Part shown: piece after piece, positions 15,872 to 24,969 of the stretch
Layout: each line of letters starts with the position of its first letter
Position numbering within the stretch: the first letter of the stretch is position 1
From: Promethearchaeia archaeon
Lineage (GTDB): Archaea; Asgardarchaeota; Lokiarchaeia; Sigyniarchaeales; SOKP01
Assembly (NCBI GenBank): GCA_029856085.1
Contig: JAHQWI010000113.1
Span: forward strand, 1-33,299
DNA: 33,299 nucleotides
Reading direction: 5' to 3'
Notes under the pieces: generated by a model
Databases searched by the model: none
Seen by the model: only the letters and a program-made list of their open reading frames with translations
Told to the model about the DNA's origin: nothing
Position numbers and translations under genes: made by a program

Positions 15872-17077
15872 CTATTTCTTATTATTCACAAAGTGTTTTA
15901 AGACGATTATATAATTTTTTACTGTTAAAATTTTTGGATTCTTTCGATAATTCACTGGAATTGGGGCATTACATCGAGAGCAGAGATTTGAACTTCGTAA
16001 CCAATCCTTAAATTCGTCTGCGTGAGCAGGATATCGACAATTAGGACACAATATTATTCCTCTTCCTCTGTCTTCAGGGATTTTCGGTAATTTAAAACAG
16101 AAGATACATTTAAAATCCTCTGTTGATAAGCGTGCGGCTTTTGGCTTATATTGATTAAAATTTGTTATTTTTCTAGTACTTTGTTTACTTCTTACTTGTG
16201 TTCCCGTTGGACCTCTACTTGTAGTTCTATTTGTTGTTTTAGATCTTGATGTTGTAGATCGTCTTTGTGATGTTGGTGTTGATCTTGATGAATAACTAGC
16301 TGATCTTGATCTATTAGTTACAGTTCTATTTGAGGGTGTTGGAGATGATCTTGTTGTTGTTCGAGTGCTTTCTCTATATCTTCGAGGAGTTGTATTTCTT
16401 CTAGGTGATGCCAATTGATTTAACCTATTTGTACGTTGTGTTATGTAATCTCTTGTTAATTGGGGTAACCGTGATCGCGTCCCAAATAATCCAGGGATAA
16501 TAATTATTAATATAGTACTGATAAGCAATGCTAAAAGATTAAGATCTATTAAAAAATGAAGAGGTATTAAATGGAGTTCATAGAAGTCGATAAGTGAATA
16601 AAAGCTTATCCAATAAATAATTATAAAAAACAGAATTGAGATACCTAAAATATATCCAAATTTACGTGCATTTACGGATTTCGTTCCAAAATAAATTACA
16701 TTATATTTTTTGAAACAACGATATAGAGAAATTGACCCATATAATATATAAGGAAATCCAAATAGAATACTCCACCAGCTTAAATACAAATCTGTATCTT
16801 CTAGAAGATTTTCTCCCAATAAACCTGTAAAATTTCCCCAGATTGAATAAAAAATTCCAATAAAAACAGGAGCAATTGTAAAAAATGCAGTATTATGAGG
16901 TGAATTAAATTCGCGATATTGCTTAATATTTTTTAAAACCTTAAATGAAAATATTAGCCAGATTCCAATTAACAACCAACTTACAAAGACATTAACAGAA
17001 TTTAGAATAGCACCATGTATTATGCCGATAATTGAAAATGCAATTAATAGTAGAGCTATTGATTTAGTTTTCACCAC
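15872..17077 (-). CDS. Multi-pass membrane protein with SR/T-rich linker and C-terminal RING-like zinc finger; candidate E3 of the adjacent ubiquitin-like system
   Basis: About 6 hydrophobic segments (ALLLIAFSIIGIIHGAIL; FVSWLLIGIWLIFSF; FFTIAPVFIGIFYSIW; SILFGFPYILYGSISLY; GYILGISILFFIIIYWISF; LLALLISTILIIIIPGLFG), then a Ser/Thr/Arg low-complexity region, then CIFCFKLPKIPEDRGRGIILCPNCRYPAHADEFKDWLRSSNLCSRCNAPIP. Same strand and just downstream of the JAMM gene. Confidence 0.75.
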   Translation of the reverse strand: MVKTKSIALLLIAFSIIGIIHGAILNSVNVFVSWLLIGIWLIFSFKVLKNIKQYREFNSPHNTAFFTIAPVFIGIFYSIWGNFTGLLGENLLEDTDLYLSWWSILFGFPYILYGSISLYRCFKKYNVIYFGTKSVNARKFGYILGISILFFIIIYWISFYSLIDFYELHLIPLHFLIDLNLLALLISTILIIIIPGLFGTRSRLPQLTRDYITQRTNRLNQLASPRRNTTPRRYRESTRTTTRSSPTPSNRTVTNRSRSASYSSRSTPTSQRRSTTSRSKTTNRTTSRGPTGTQVRSKQSTRKITNFNQYKPKAARLSTEDFKCIFCFKLPKIPEDRGRGIILCPNCRYPAHADEFKDWLRSSNLCSRCNAPIPVNYRKNPKILTVKNYIIVLKHFVNNKK

Positions 17078-17106
17078 GGCTTAATAACCTCCTTCTATAT
17101 CATAAT

Positions 17107-17934
17107 TTAATCTTCGTCATATTCTAAATAAACTGGTTTCCCTTGAATAATAGGATTCATAAATGCTAAGATATCTGGTAACATTCGTATGTCTAATGAG
17201 CCTTTAATTCCATATAATAATGGATACCAAGTTTTTGTCTTCAGATTTGCTCGATAAATCTCAAAACCCGCTGAAGTTCCATCAATAAGGTAAGGATCAA
17301 TAACAAGTGCAACGGCTTTATCCCAGAGTTTTTGATATCTTTCTTGAGTGCCTATATCTTCACTAGACATGAAACAGCCAAAAGTTGGATGTGAATGATA
17401 CCATCCACACAAAAATAATTTCTGTTTTTTAATATCTCTATAAGCTCTCACATAATTCTTATAATCTTTAATTTCTGCATAAACTGCGGTTCCATGCCCC
17501 ATTGGGTAAGCATCTTCGATATGTAGTATATCATTTTTATCTAATTTTCCTCCAAGAAGCCCTATAACTTCCACCCAATTTACTTTTGGAATCTTATTAT
17601 TAGCATATTTAAGCGCATGGCTTGCTATTTTAAGGATTGCTTTTAATGATATATAGATTTCCTTTTGGATTTCCAGTTCAATTTGAGTTTCAACATTTTT
17701 TTTCTCTATCATTTTAGCTGTAGGTTCTTTTGAATGTTTTATAATTGGTTTAGCATTTGATTTCTGTGTAAGCATAGAAGTGATTTCTTCTGTTAATTCT
17801 TCTTCTTCTAATTTAAGCTCTTCACATATTTCATCTAATAATTCTTTTTTTATTTTTTCCTTAATTTTCCTCTTAATTTGATCTTTTATTGAATTATTAG
17901 ATAATTGTTTTTCTTCCATTAGGAAAATCACCAC
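17107..17934 (-). CDS. Rpn11/CSN5-like JAB1/MPN+/JAMM metalloprotease (candidate deubiquitinase)
   Basis: Full JAMM motif CGWYHSHPTFGCFMSSEDIGTQERYQ with upstream catalytic-type Glu (VNWVEVIGLLGG); ALVIDPYL as in Rpn11-type proteins; charged N-terminal extension. Confidence 0.95.
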   Translation of the reverse strand: MVIFLMEEKQLSNNSIKDQIKRKIKEKIKKELLDEICEELKLEEEELTEEITSMLTQKSNAKPIIKHSKEPTAKMIEKKNVETQIELEIQKEIYISLKAILKIASHALKYANNKIPKVNWVEVIGLLGGKLDKNDILHIEDAYPMGHGTAVYAEIKDYKNYVRAYRDIKKQKLFLCGWYHSHPTFGCFMSSEDIGTQERYQKLWDKAVALVIDPYLIDGTSAGFEIYRANLKTKTWYPLLYGIKGSLDIRMLPDILAFMNPIIQGKPVYLEYDED

Positions 17935-18455
17935 TTCTTATTTGCATACTTTTTTACTAAGTTTTTAACTTTTTTCTCGAAAAACTTAGGATTTTTCATC
18001 ATTTCTATTGCTGCTTTTTTATTAAAAACATCTGTTGGATTTACATATTTACCACGGGTGTTTAACATAGCAATTATTGCTTGAACAACTGTTACTGCTT
18101 TTTTTGATGGGCTCCATCCACCTTTTTTACCAATTAGAGAGGGATCTACTAAAGCTAAACAAATATTCCTCTGTCCTTTATATTCGGTAGGTTTTGGCCA
18201 AAAATTTGGATGCCATATTGGAGTATGCATTCTTACAAAAGGCGGTTGTTTAGGATACTGAGTAGGAAATTTCATTTCCAATTTAAAGACCCCCCCCCCA
18301 TATGCAGTACCCTTAGGACCTTTTATAGCTAGAGCTAAATGGTCAATACTCTTCTTTTTAGGATTAAATGGTTTTAATTGAACAATGGTTCCTTCCTTAA
18401 GCATTTTTTTTAATCCTGCAAAATCTTGGGAAATACGACTACTTCTTATACTCAT
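17928..18455 (-). CDS. E2 ubiquitin-conjugating enzyme-like (UBC fold)
   Basis: IKGPKGTAYGGGVFKLEMKFPTQYPKQPPFVRMHTPIWHPNFW...RNICLALVDPSLIGKKGGWSPSKKAVTVVQAIIAML: HPN motif and catalytic Cys in 'NICL'. Confidence 0.96.
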   Translation of the reverse strand: MSIRSSRISQDFAGLKKMLKEGTIVQLKPFNPKKKSIDHLALAIKGPKGTAYGGGVFKLEMKFPTQYPKQPPFVRMHTPIWHPNFWPKPTEYKGQRNICLALVDPSLIGKKGGWSPSKKAVTVVQAIIAMLNTRGKYVNPTDVFNKKAAIEMMKNPKFFEKKVKNLVKKYANKKW

Positions 18456-18556
18456 TTTTTCATACCTTTTTATTATTTCTTCTAATTCTTTATTATTATA
18501 TTTTTTTTTAATGTTTTTTTGTTAAATTTTATATAAAATATTTTTTGGTTAAATTC

Positions 18557-19792
18557 TTATCTCAATTTTAAGGTTACAAAAATTTCTCCATCTTTAAATC
18601 CTGCAGCTGTAATTAATTCATAATTTCTCAAACCATTTTCATCAGCGGTCTGTTCTAAATCTACAATCTTTATATCATTGAAATCTAATAAAGTAAGGAC
18701 TGGCTCAGAATCTTTATCCAGTTCAAAACCATTATTTTTCAATATCTCAATTAATCTTCCACAGGGTGATTGAGATCTTAATTTTATAGATACTCTTCGA
18801 ACATTTTTACCACATTGAGAACATTCTGGATTTCTTTGTTTTTCAATATGATAAAATTTCATGGTCATTGCATTTAAGATTATATAACTTTGAACAGGCT
18901 CACCTAATGCTTTATGTCCTTTTCTCCAATGAAGAATTTTTACTGCTTCATGTGATTGTAATGCAGAAATAACTGCATTTATGGTTATTATTCCAGGATC
19001 ATGTCTATCAATAATTATTACAATATCATCTTCTGTATATTCAGGTAAGAAATTATGTTTATTAACTAATTCATTTGCAACTTTTTGAATGAATTTAATA
19101 TCATTTATATTCTTTGGATTTGGATCTCTGTCAAATTTTTCTTTAAATGCCATATCTCCTTTAAAAACGCAATGAATTCTTTTTCGGGGAATTCCTACTA
19201 CCGTGCAAGCCGCCATCTCATCATTTCCTCCCATAGGCAACGGATTGCATTCATAACAAGCATTTTGATAAGGAAAAATTGTATATACATGGCCATGATA
19301 ACCAGATACACCTCCATCCACTAAAGGCTTTTTAAATCTTATACATTGAGCATTTAAGTTTAAACGTGCATTCATCGAATCAAGGCCACCTATGATAACA
19401 TCAGCAGCCTGATATATCGCAGGATTCAATCGTTCTAATGAAGTATAATATCCCTTGATAATGATATTAGGATTAATTTCCCTTAGTTTTCTAGCTGCAA
19501 TAATTGCCTTAGGCTCTCCGATCTTTGCTCCACTGAAAAGAATTTGTCGGTTCAAATTAGAGTGTTCAATGATATCTAAATCGACGAGATCTAAACAACC
19601 AACTCCAAGCATAGCTAAGTTCTTAGCAATTTCACAACCTAAACCACCAACACCAGCTATTAACACTCTCGAGTTTTTTACCAATTTCTGAGACCAACCC
19701 TCAAGACGAAACTGGCGATCATACAAATTTCTCTCTTCCACTGATAATTCTTTTCCGAAAAATTCTGAACCCTTATCCAATATTATCACCAT
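18557..19792 (-). CDS. E1-like ubiquitin-activating enzyme (UBA3-like: ThiF adenylation domain, catalytic Cys segment, two CxxC, UFD-like C-terminus)
   Basis: YDRQFRLEGWSQKLVKNSRVLIAGVGGLGCEIAKNLAMLGVG; DLDIIEHSNLNRQILFSGAKIG; CYECNP...AACTVVGIPRKRIHCVFK; NPECSQCG; C-terminal IEILKNNGFELDKDSEPVLTLLDFNDIKIV...ELITAAGFKDGEIFVTLKL. Confidence 0.95.
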   Translation of the reverse strand: MVIILDKGSEFFGKELSVEERNLYDRQFRLEGWSQKLVKNSRVLIAGVGGLGCEIAKNLAMLGVGCLDLVDLDIIEHSNLNRQILFSGAKIGEPKAIIAARKLREINPNIIIKGYYTSLERLNPAIYQAADVIIGGLDSMNARLNLNAQCIRFKKPLVDGGVSGYHGHVYTIFPYQNACYECNPLPMGGNDEMAACTVVGIPRKRIHCVFKGDMAFKEKFDRDPNPKNINDIKFIQKVANELVNKHNFLPEYTEDDIVIIIDRHDPGIITINAVISALQSHEAVKILHWRKGHKALGEPVQSYIILNAMTMKFYHIEKQRNPECSQCGKNVRRVSIKLRSQSPCGRLIEILKNNGFELDKDSEPVLTLLDFNDIKIVDLEQTADENGLRNYELITAAGFKDGEIFVTLKLR

Positions 19793-19871
19793 TAATTTTA
19801 ATAAAAAAAATAAAAAAAGTTGAAGGGCTAAACACCCTTATATTATAAATTATAAAGAAAATTATTTAAGT

Positions 19872-20207
19872 TTACCCAGCAGTACTGGCAGGAATCAAAA
19901 GAATATCATCTCCATCATTTACATGATATTCTTTTAATGAGCCATTTTCATCCATTGTCACTCCACCAGATGATAAATGAAAGTCATTAGGATCAAGTCC
20001 ATATAAATTTCCTAATGTTTGTTTAATGTCATCAACGCAATTTCCGTCATTCACAGTTAATTTTTCCTTCTTTTCACCAGGACCAATAGTTGACATAAAA
20101 TATAAAGTTATTTTCTTTCCTGTTGAAGGGATTTTAGTCATGGGTGTTTTAGATTTCATAGGTTCTTCCCCAACTAAATCCTCATCAAATTCTTCTTCAA
20201 AACTCAT
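19872..20207 (-). CDS. Ubiquitin-like modifier (Ubl-1), beta-grasp with acidic N-terminal extension, C-terminus ...PASTAG
   Basis: KKITLYFMSTIGPGEKKEKLTVNDGNCVDDIKQTLGNLYGLDPNDFHLSSGGVTMDENGSLKEYHVNDGDDILLIPASTAG; first gene of the E1/E2/JAMM/RING set. Confidence 0.9.
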   Translation of the reverse strand: MSFEEEFDEDLVGEEPMKSKTPMTKIPSTGKKITLYFMSTIGPGEKKEKLTVNDGNCVDDIKQTLGNLYGLDPNDFHLSSGGVTMDENGSLKEYHVNDGDDILLIPASTAG

Positions 20208-23753: not shown

Positions 23754-24551
23754 ATGAGGAAAAAATATAGAACATTAAGCGTTATTACTCTCTACGCTAT
23801 TTTTGTTTTAATTTACATAAGTTTTTTCCTATTTGGAATAAATAATACCCCGTTATTTCTTACACTAACAATTGGGAGTGTTGCAGTTCTCTCAACTAGT
23901 ACAATCTACACAGTTATCCAATCTAAAGGTTATCAACATGATAAAATAAGAGATAAGAAATATTCACCGAAACCTAAGTCTATCCATAATATAGACGAGA
24001 AAATTATTGATGATTATCTTGAGGCTTTGCCTTCAATAGAAGAATATCTTGATTCAAATGAAACTTATGAGGATATACCAATGATCAATAAATACATTTT
24101 TTCAGTTTTTAGTAAGGAAGAATTGGGAAAAATAAACTATCTTGGATTGTCAAAGCTTGACAAAATACTATTTATTAGAGAAATGCTCTATTTTGATGAA
24201 GATGAGCGAAAAGTATTAATCGACAACATGCTTAAGAACAGAGATAAAACTGATGAGGAAATATTTTATATACCCCCAAAGAATACAGTTAATCTAAAGG
24301 ATCAGATCCGCGTTTACATAAGGTCTTTAGCCGAGGCCGGCGAGATAACAAAGTTGATCATTGTTGATACAACTGAATTAATTAGTACTATTAAAGAGAG
24401 AGTAGGAGTATTATTTAATTATGAATTGAAGGATTTCCTGTTATCTTCAGGGGGCATCTTACTATCAGAAGAAAAGAAAATACAAGACTATGATATTGAT
24501 GACGATGATGAAATTGCTCTGATTCCCTCTAGAAAAAAAAAAAATAATTAA
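23754..24551 (+). CDS. Membrane protein with two N-terminal TM segments and a C-terminal ubiquitin-like domain lacking a conjugatable tail
   Basis: TM1 TLSVITLYAIFVLIYISFFLFGI, TM2 PLFLTLTIGSVAVLSTSTIYTVI; C-terminus LIIVDTTELISTIKERVGVLFNYELKDFLLSSGGILLSEEKKIQDYDIDDDDEIALIPSRKKKNN aligns without gaps to Ubl-2 (KLLINSGNLVGDIKETVANLFGLDPDDFYLSSGGVTMDEQNPLKDYYVDDGDDILLIPASIAG). Confidence 0.8.
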   Translation: MRKKYRTLSVITLYAIFVLIYISFFLFGINNTPLFLTLTIGSVAVLSTSTIYTVIQSKGYQHDKIRDKKYSPKPKSIHNIDEKIIDDYLEALPSIEEYLDSNETYEDIPMINKYIFSVFSKEELGKINYLGLSKLDKILFIREMLYFDEDERKVLIDNMLKNRDKTDEEIFYIPPKNTVNLKDQIRVYIRSLAEAGEITKLIIVDTTELISTIKERVGVLFNYELKDFLLSSGGILLSEEKKIQDYDIDDDDEIALIPSRKKKNN

Positions 24552-24597: not shown

Positions 24598-24969
24598 TTA
24601 ACCAGCAATACTTGCTGGAATTAAAAGTATATCATCTCCGTCATCTACATAATAATCTTTTAAAGGGTTCTGTTCATCCATTGTTACTCCTCCAGAACTT
24701 AAATAAAAATCATCTGGATCTAAACCAAATAAATTTGCTACTGTTTCTTTAATATCTCCAACAAGATTTCCAGAATTTATGAGTAATTTTTGTTTTTTCT
24801 CACCAGGGCCAATAGTTGACATAAAATATACTGAAATCTTTTTCCCCTCAGGAACAGCCTTCGCAGCAGGAGTTTTTGAATTTATTTCTTTCCCGGGGAT
24901 TTGATCCATTTCTTCATCCAGATCTTCATCAAGTTCTAATTCTTCATCAAATTCTTCATCAAATCCCAT
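24598..24969 (-). CDS. Ubiquitin-like modifier paralog (Ubl-2), highly acidic N-terminal extension, C-terminus ...PASIAG
   Basis: KKISVYFMSTIGPGEKKQKLLINSGNLVGDIKETVANLFGLDPDDFYLSSGGVTMDEQNPLKDYYVDDGDDILLIPASIAG; ungapped alignment with Ubl-1. Confidence 0.88.
   Translation of the reverse strand: MGFDEEFDEELELDEDLDEEMDQIPGKEINSKTPAAKAVPEGKKISVYFMSTIGPGEKKQKLLINSGNLVGDIKETVANLFGLDPDDFYLSSGGVTMDEQNPLKDYYVDDGDDILLIPASIAG

Follow-up and report, generated by a model that had tools for sequence, protein, structure and literature searches.

An Ala-Gly-Ending Ubiquitin-like Protein of Lokiarchaea and Its Putative Dedicated Cascade

Ubiquitin-type modifiers are generally regarded as ending, almost without exception, in Gly-Gly. 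The window analyzed in this study, namely the whole stretch of 33,299 nucleotides from contig JAHQWI010000113.1 of a Lokiarchaeal assembly, encodes a free ubiquitin-like protein, Ubl-1, whose translation closes with Ala-Gly, and this raises the question of whether such an end belongs to a protein modifier and, if so, which enzymes would handle it. Our analysis makes it rather probable, on the strength of sequence comparisons, that Ubl-1 is a ubiquitin-type protein modifier with Ala-Gly (AG) as its mature reactive end, served by a dedicated cascade beside a Gly-Gly (GG) ubiquitin cascade. This reading is based on the sequence itself, the operon, conservation, motif integrity, covariation between E1 and modifier, and the coexistence of both systems.

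Terminus and predicted fold of Ubl-1

Ubl-1 is encoded at 19872..20207 on the minus strand as a protein of 111 aa with an acidic N-terminal extension, a beta-grasp domain and the C-terminus PASTAG (...DDILLIPASTAG). The 3' codons are CCT GCC AGT ACT GCT GGG TAA; Ala110-Gly111 corresponds to GCT GGG (19875..19880, minus strand), directly followed by TAA (19872-19874), so that Gly111 is the final residue and the terminal Gly is exposed, as in ubiquitin-like modifiers. The canonical Gly-Gly is replaced by Ala-Gly across the homologues, and the canonical Arg72 of ubiquitin is likewise missing, its position being occupied by Ala107.

The Pfam family PF00240 matched Ubl-1 with an E value of 3.9e-5, just under the cut-off. 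In the AF2 model, strands were predicted at residues 32-39, 46-53, 76-80 and 101-106 and helices at 58-69 and 91-94, with a pLDDT of about 78-87 in the domain and 36 in the C-terminal residue block. The top Foldseek matches of this model were to the ubiquitin of Caldiarchaeum (CsUb), and E values of about 1e-7 to 1e-6 were obtained against CsUb, SUMO, ISG15 and NEDD8. The predicted structure is that of a beta-grasp fold with a flexible C-terminal tail.

The same genome carries two more AG-type copies: Ubl-2 in the window (123 aa, 24598..24969, minus strand), which ends ...LLIPASIAG before its stop codon, and one on contig C207 with the end ...LLIPASTAG. Because both of these also end in -AG, a single-base error is excluded for Ubl-1. 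The assembly is metagenomic and fragmented (3.26 Mb, 80% complete, 214 contigs), as would suit a sequencing or gene-calling artefact hiding a true GG end or a longer tail; however, three separate copies in the genome and 155 distinct homologues in which AG closes the last conserved block refute this explanation, to which we assign a negligible probability. The same codons, copies and homologues bear out the initial annotation, which had read -AG in place of GG.

Beside Ubl-2, an arrangement conserved in Lokiarchaea, lies a gene on the plus strand (23754..24551) for a membrane protein that contains a Ubl domain of the Ubl-1 family. Its basic, AG-less end (IPSRKKKNN) provides a natural control without the AG terminus, and the protein may serve in the membrane as a decoy or as a receptor that binds non-covalently.

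Conservation of Ala-Gly and the variable tails

Homologues were collected by a Ubl-1 protein search and by an alignment-based search, the latter of which found the family in 109 of 227 Asgard genomes and in 25 of 61 genera. An earlier AG count had required the last model column, which would favor AG; an identical result was obtained with a core-only profile, from which the last nine columns were dropped, so that AG was not selected for and the residues after the profile could be read. In this terminus-blind comparison with related archaeal Ubls, which had been proposed in the initial annotation as a check, Ala-Gly was conserved in 155 of 155 distinct free homologues from at least 11 Asgard families, all in fetched loci that were retrieved with the Ubl-1 family or Pfam ubiquitin, so that a strongly diverged AG-less member could have escaped. 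The non-AG matches of the core-only profile comprised 34 membrane-bound paralogues that end in IPSRK or a like sequence, a single fragment of 49 residues, and a single GG-ubiquitin at an E value of 0.001. Since these membrane-bound paralogues (UblTM) lack AG, the fold itself does not need it.

All four Ala codons (GCT 71, GCA 44, GCG 35, GCC 5) and all four Gly codons (GGT 62, GGA 51, GGG 28, GGC 14) are used at the AG site of the 155 homologues, and the conservation is therefore at the protein and not the DNA level. In the homologue alignment, the column entropy was 0 at the P, S, A and G of the PASTAG-type end, 1.64 bits at the residue following Pro, and 2.9 bits at the first position beyond Gly; conservation ends at the Gly of AG. 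The protein stops at this Gly in 91 of the 155 homologues, and the remaining 64 have one to seven variable residues beyond it (44 distinct tails), as in the PASTAGKA end found in the genus of Ubl-1 itself. This distribution indicates that AG is the common mature end, and that trimming would be needed in many species and not for the window copy. The earlier claim that there is no tail and no maturation consequently stands for the window copy, in which TAA directly follows Gly, and fails for the family, for which the idea that no precursor exists was rejected.

Nor is AG an isolated exception: it invariably marks an entire Asgard cascade, which exists alongside a GG cascade. Literature searches, which covered mainly openly available main texts, found no published report of an AG-ending Asgard ubiquitin.

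AG-type Ubl domains were also observed at the C-terminus of large proteins (L116:1895-3715, L117:8075-9829, L118:241-2019, L113:11122-12000 and L114:3427-5358), the large proteins being a HerA-like ATPase and a VWA protein with a CDC48-N-like domain. These fused domains end at AG or at most two residues from it, as if the whole fusion protein could be conjugated.

Operon partners and the proposed cascade

The gene order in the window (15872-20207) is Ubl, E1, E2, JAMM and membrane RING-like protein, all in one direction. The cognate E1 (18557..19792, minus strand, 411 aa) has a ThiF/UBA fold with a GVGGLG loop at 47, the catalytic Cys196 (AACT), and the gate residues His168 and Tyr170. The E2 (17928..18455, minus strand, 175 aa) contains the HPN motif and a catalytic Cys (RNICLAL) and matched PF00179 at 4.6e-25. 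Its gene shares seven bases with that of an Rpn11-like JAMM/MPN+ metalloprotease (17107..17934, minus strand), in which the motif E...HSHP...S..D is intact and for which CsRpn11, the Rpn11 of Caldiarchaeum, was both the top sequence match and the closest solved structure. The last gene (15872..17077, minus strand) encodes a membrane protein and putative E3, composed of a transmembrane N-terminal region, a low-complexity Ser/Thr/Arg linker and a C-terminal RING-like finger (C..C...C..C..H...C..C), which had no Pfam match.

The full set of clustered ubiquitin, E1, E2, RING protein and Rpn11-like JAMM was present in the window and in most full-length loci, and recurred in the Asgard families f1, f2, f3, f4, f7, f15, f17, f18, f19, f27 and f28. 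Some AG loci were rearranged or ended by a contig edge, and in f15 the E2-JAMM-RING part lies on the opposite side of the Ubl-E1 pair. In the AG operons, the E1 cysteine motif, the E2 HPN/Cys motif (23 of 23 E2s) and the JAMM motif (HSHP-x6-S-x2-D, visible in the protein sequences and the alignment) are all intact, and the RING-like finger was found in 22 of the 24 frames scored as this membrane protein, one of the misses being masked by N. This conserved operon supports the earlier expectation that the neighboring E1, E2 and JAMM are the partners that must accept -AG.

The arrangement resembles the cascade of Caldiarchaeum subterraneum (CsUb, E1, E2, srfp, CsRpn11), which is likewise an operon of ubiquitin, E1, E2, RING protein and Rpn11-like JAMM. 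CsUb ends in GG once a tail of 9 aa is removed (PMC5654768, PMC6043591). In contrast, the window system has AG, a short tail or none, a Ubl extended by an acidic stretch at its N-terminus, and a transmembrane RING-like protein in place of srfp. A GG modifier matured by Rpn11 is thus not what was found: the terminus is AG, Ubl-1 has no tail, and tails of 1-7 aa occur in 64 of 155 homologues. Judged from these features, the AG system is a variant of the archaeal ubiquitin cascade, one that departs from the Gly-Gly rule in a conserved manner.

The initial annotation aptly compared Ubl-1 with UFM1, which ends in Val-Gly. The UFM1/UBA5/UFC1 system shares a small non-Gly residue before the terminal Gly, a small E1 (about 410 aa for the minimal E1 of the window) and a short-tailed pro-form, and UBA5, too, carries His where the window E1 has His168, so that the cascade could be taken for an archaeal UFMylation system. 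Nevertheless, this is highly unlikely, and a UFMylation ancestor was rejected on the E1, the E2 and the operon protease. The best PDB matches of the E1 were UBA1, UBA2 and UBA3 (E values of 1e-37 to 1e-33), whereas UBA5 reached only about 1e-15, so that the alignment scores do not place it on the UBA5 branch. The E2, an HPN-type enzyme, has ubiquitin E2s and UBC9 as its nearest relatives, and by these matches both enzymes belong to the ubiquitin/SUMO/NEDD8 branch; the protease encoded in the operon is of the JAMM type and not a UFSP cysteine protease; the terminus is AG, not VG; and UBA5 and UFM1 were absent from the best structural or profile matches.

A different role was also considered, in which Ubl-1 would carry sulfur or bind partners without being conjugated, in the manner of MoaD/ThiS or Hub1. 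ThiF-type E1s serve sulfur carriers too, the beta-grasp fold and ThiF-type activation are common to SAMP, MoaD and ThiS, whose tail IPxxxGG is similar to IPASTAG, and Hub1-like Ubls without GG exist, Hub1 being among the structural matches of Ubl-1. However, these carriers end in GG and have no E2, whereas Ubl-1 has AG and a dedicated E2; sulfur transfer offers no function for the JAMM, the RING-like protein or an ever-present E2 with HPN and Cys; the terminal Gly never varies; and the genome of Ubl-1 has its own three MoaD/ThiS sulfur carriers, all ending in GG, together with MoeB. We consider this role very improbable.

For a protein modifier with an Ala-Gly end, the operon points to the following cascade. 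Gly111 of Ubl-1 would be adenylated by the neighboring E1 and then held as a thioester on Cys196, from which Ubl-1 would be handed to the neighboring E2. The membrane-anchored RING-like protein would probably assist ligation by steering Ubl-1 to lysines near the membrane, its anchoring being suggestive of membrane-associated targets. The neighboring JAMM protease may take Ubl-1 off again and, in other members, also trim the precursors with 1-7 extra residues.

The short diagnostic AG remnant that had been anticipated after trypsin digestion did not hold: since K92 is the last trypsin site in Ubl-1, trypsin leaves a remnant of 19 residues (EYHVNDGDDILLIPASTAG) and not an AG stub. Searches for Asgard ubiquitylation by K-GG antibody or GG mass shift would miss AG conjugates.

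The E1 gate and the coexisting Gly-Gly systems

In UBA1, Asn574 and Gln576 form a pocket for Arg72 of ubiquitin, and the counterparts in UBA3 are Asn188 and Arg190, facing Ala72 of NEDD8 (PMC3731359). His168 and Tyr170 of the window E1 were aligned to GNVQ of UBA1; in place of Arg72 read by an E1 Gln (UBA1 Gln576), the pair here is Ala107 in Ubl-1 and Tyr170 in the E1. Among 114 neighboring ubiquitin-E1 pairs, E1 position 170 tracked modifier residue 72, with Gln for Arg72 in 31 of 31, Arg for Asp72 in 5 of 5, and Tyr for AG-Ubls in 75 of 75 (67 of 67 by pattern and 8 by eye, with three AG pairs left out), although close relatives are among the pairs counted, which cannot be taken as independent events. 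This covariation supports each Ubl as the substrate of its adjoining E1. The combination recalls NEDD8/UBA3 in its uncharged residue 72 and its bulky gate residue instead of Gln (Arg190 in UBA3, Tyr170 in the window), but NEDD8 ends in GG and UBA3 acts as a heterodimer.

In L190, L191, L193, L212 and L213, the modifier ends in SSDIEGG and the paired E1 has an H-x-R gate, which looks like an exchange of charge at position 72 that pairs Asp with Arg. Position 168 was also considered: His168 as a reader of the penultimate Ala at first matched the AG-E1s, L168 and UBA5 (VG modifier), and was rejected because His E1s likewise accompany the GG modifiers of these same five loci.

The locus L168 (4754-6266, genome G052) encodes a more ubiquitin-like protein, which ends in VVRSIAG plus the tail LCFGRGSI and has its own E1, E2 and JAMM. 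It keeps Arg72 alongside -AG, and its E1 gate is H-x-Q; as this Asgard ubiquitin combines both, Arg72 and -AG are separable tail features, and L168 is possibly a second origin of AG.

The canonical GG ubiquitin of Asgard archaea (RTEGG, RTTGG and similar) occurs in the same phylum, often in the same genome, and is also a beta-grasp modifier with its own E1 and usually also an E2 and a small RING protein. It differs in its Arg72 and GG tail, in an E1 gate of N-x-Q like that of UBA1, and in its separate E1 clade. Eight genomes (G053, G054, G072, G096, G100, G106, G108 and G109) contained both AG and GG modifiers, each with an adjoining E1, and in the E1 tree the 28 AG-linked E1s formed one clade (99/99) with the 10 GG-linked E1s on the opposite side.

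Based on this evidence, the tail, namely AG with an uncharged residue at the Arg72 position read by Tyr170, may help to separate the AG and GG cascades. Two points speak against this reading: His168 is not AG-specific, and L168 uncouples Arg72 from -AG. Alternatively, Ubl-1 might be conjugated with an AG that has no separating role and became frozen in the lineage once an ancestor had acquired it along with its E1 and JAMM; residue 72 and the globular surface would then define its identity. The single clade of AG-linked E1s would fit one such historical event, residue 72 is what is known to distinguish ubiquitin from NEDD8 (PMC3731359) and covaries here, and L168 carries AG together with Arg72. 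On the other side, the Ala column has zero entropy, in contrast to the preceding Thr and the Ala/Val following Pro, both of which vary, implying that Ala itself is selected, and engineered penultimate changes strongly affect canonical cascades. In Caldiarchaeum, Gly77Ala, an engineered -AG end, was processed much more slowly by Rpn11, and a penultimate Val abolished processing (PMC6043591); the human enzymes UAE and NAE have a strong preference for Gly75, and with many other residues there the modifier fails at E2 or E3 (PMC3731359). The same impairments count against the AG reading as well, and a natural AG cascade must therefore have adapted enzymes. We regard the frozen trait as a credible explanation that falls somewhat short of even probability.

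Concerning the separating role, we only tentatively propose that an Asgard cell has two or more insulated ubiquitin channels, with the penultimate Ala/Gly and the residue-72 gate as the separating code, and consider this rather doubtful at present. If true, the use of several modifiers side by side, as eukaryotes do with ubiquitin, NEDD8 and UFM1, would be older than eukaryotes themselves, and the AG channel would act at membranes. The AG family next to the GG family is a natural experiment on how tails are read by E1, E2 and JAMM enzymes, and suggests parallel modifier pathways before eukaryotes.

A further small GG ubiquitin, ending in MATQAGG (L154-L158, L204 and L207-L209), is highly conserved in Lokiarchaea without an E1 or E2 alongside. 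It occurs in most Lokiarchaea of the genus of Ubl-1, which have a second large E1 elsewhere, and was looked for and not found in the genome of Ubl-1; genus g7 has this ubiquitin and the second E1 without an AG-Ubl. The genome of Ubl-1 encodes a second ubiquitin-type E1 of 476+ aa on contig C185 (L098:1525-1620), with an in-frame TAA at the nucleotide-binding loop, which reflects either decay or misassembly; in most close relatives, the second E1 is a frame of about 530-540 aa that is open across this site.
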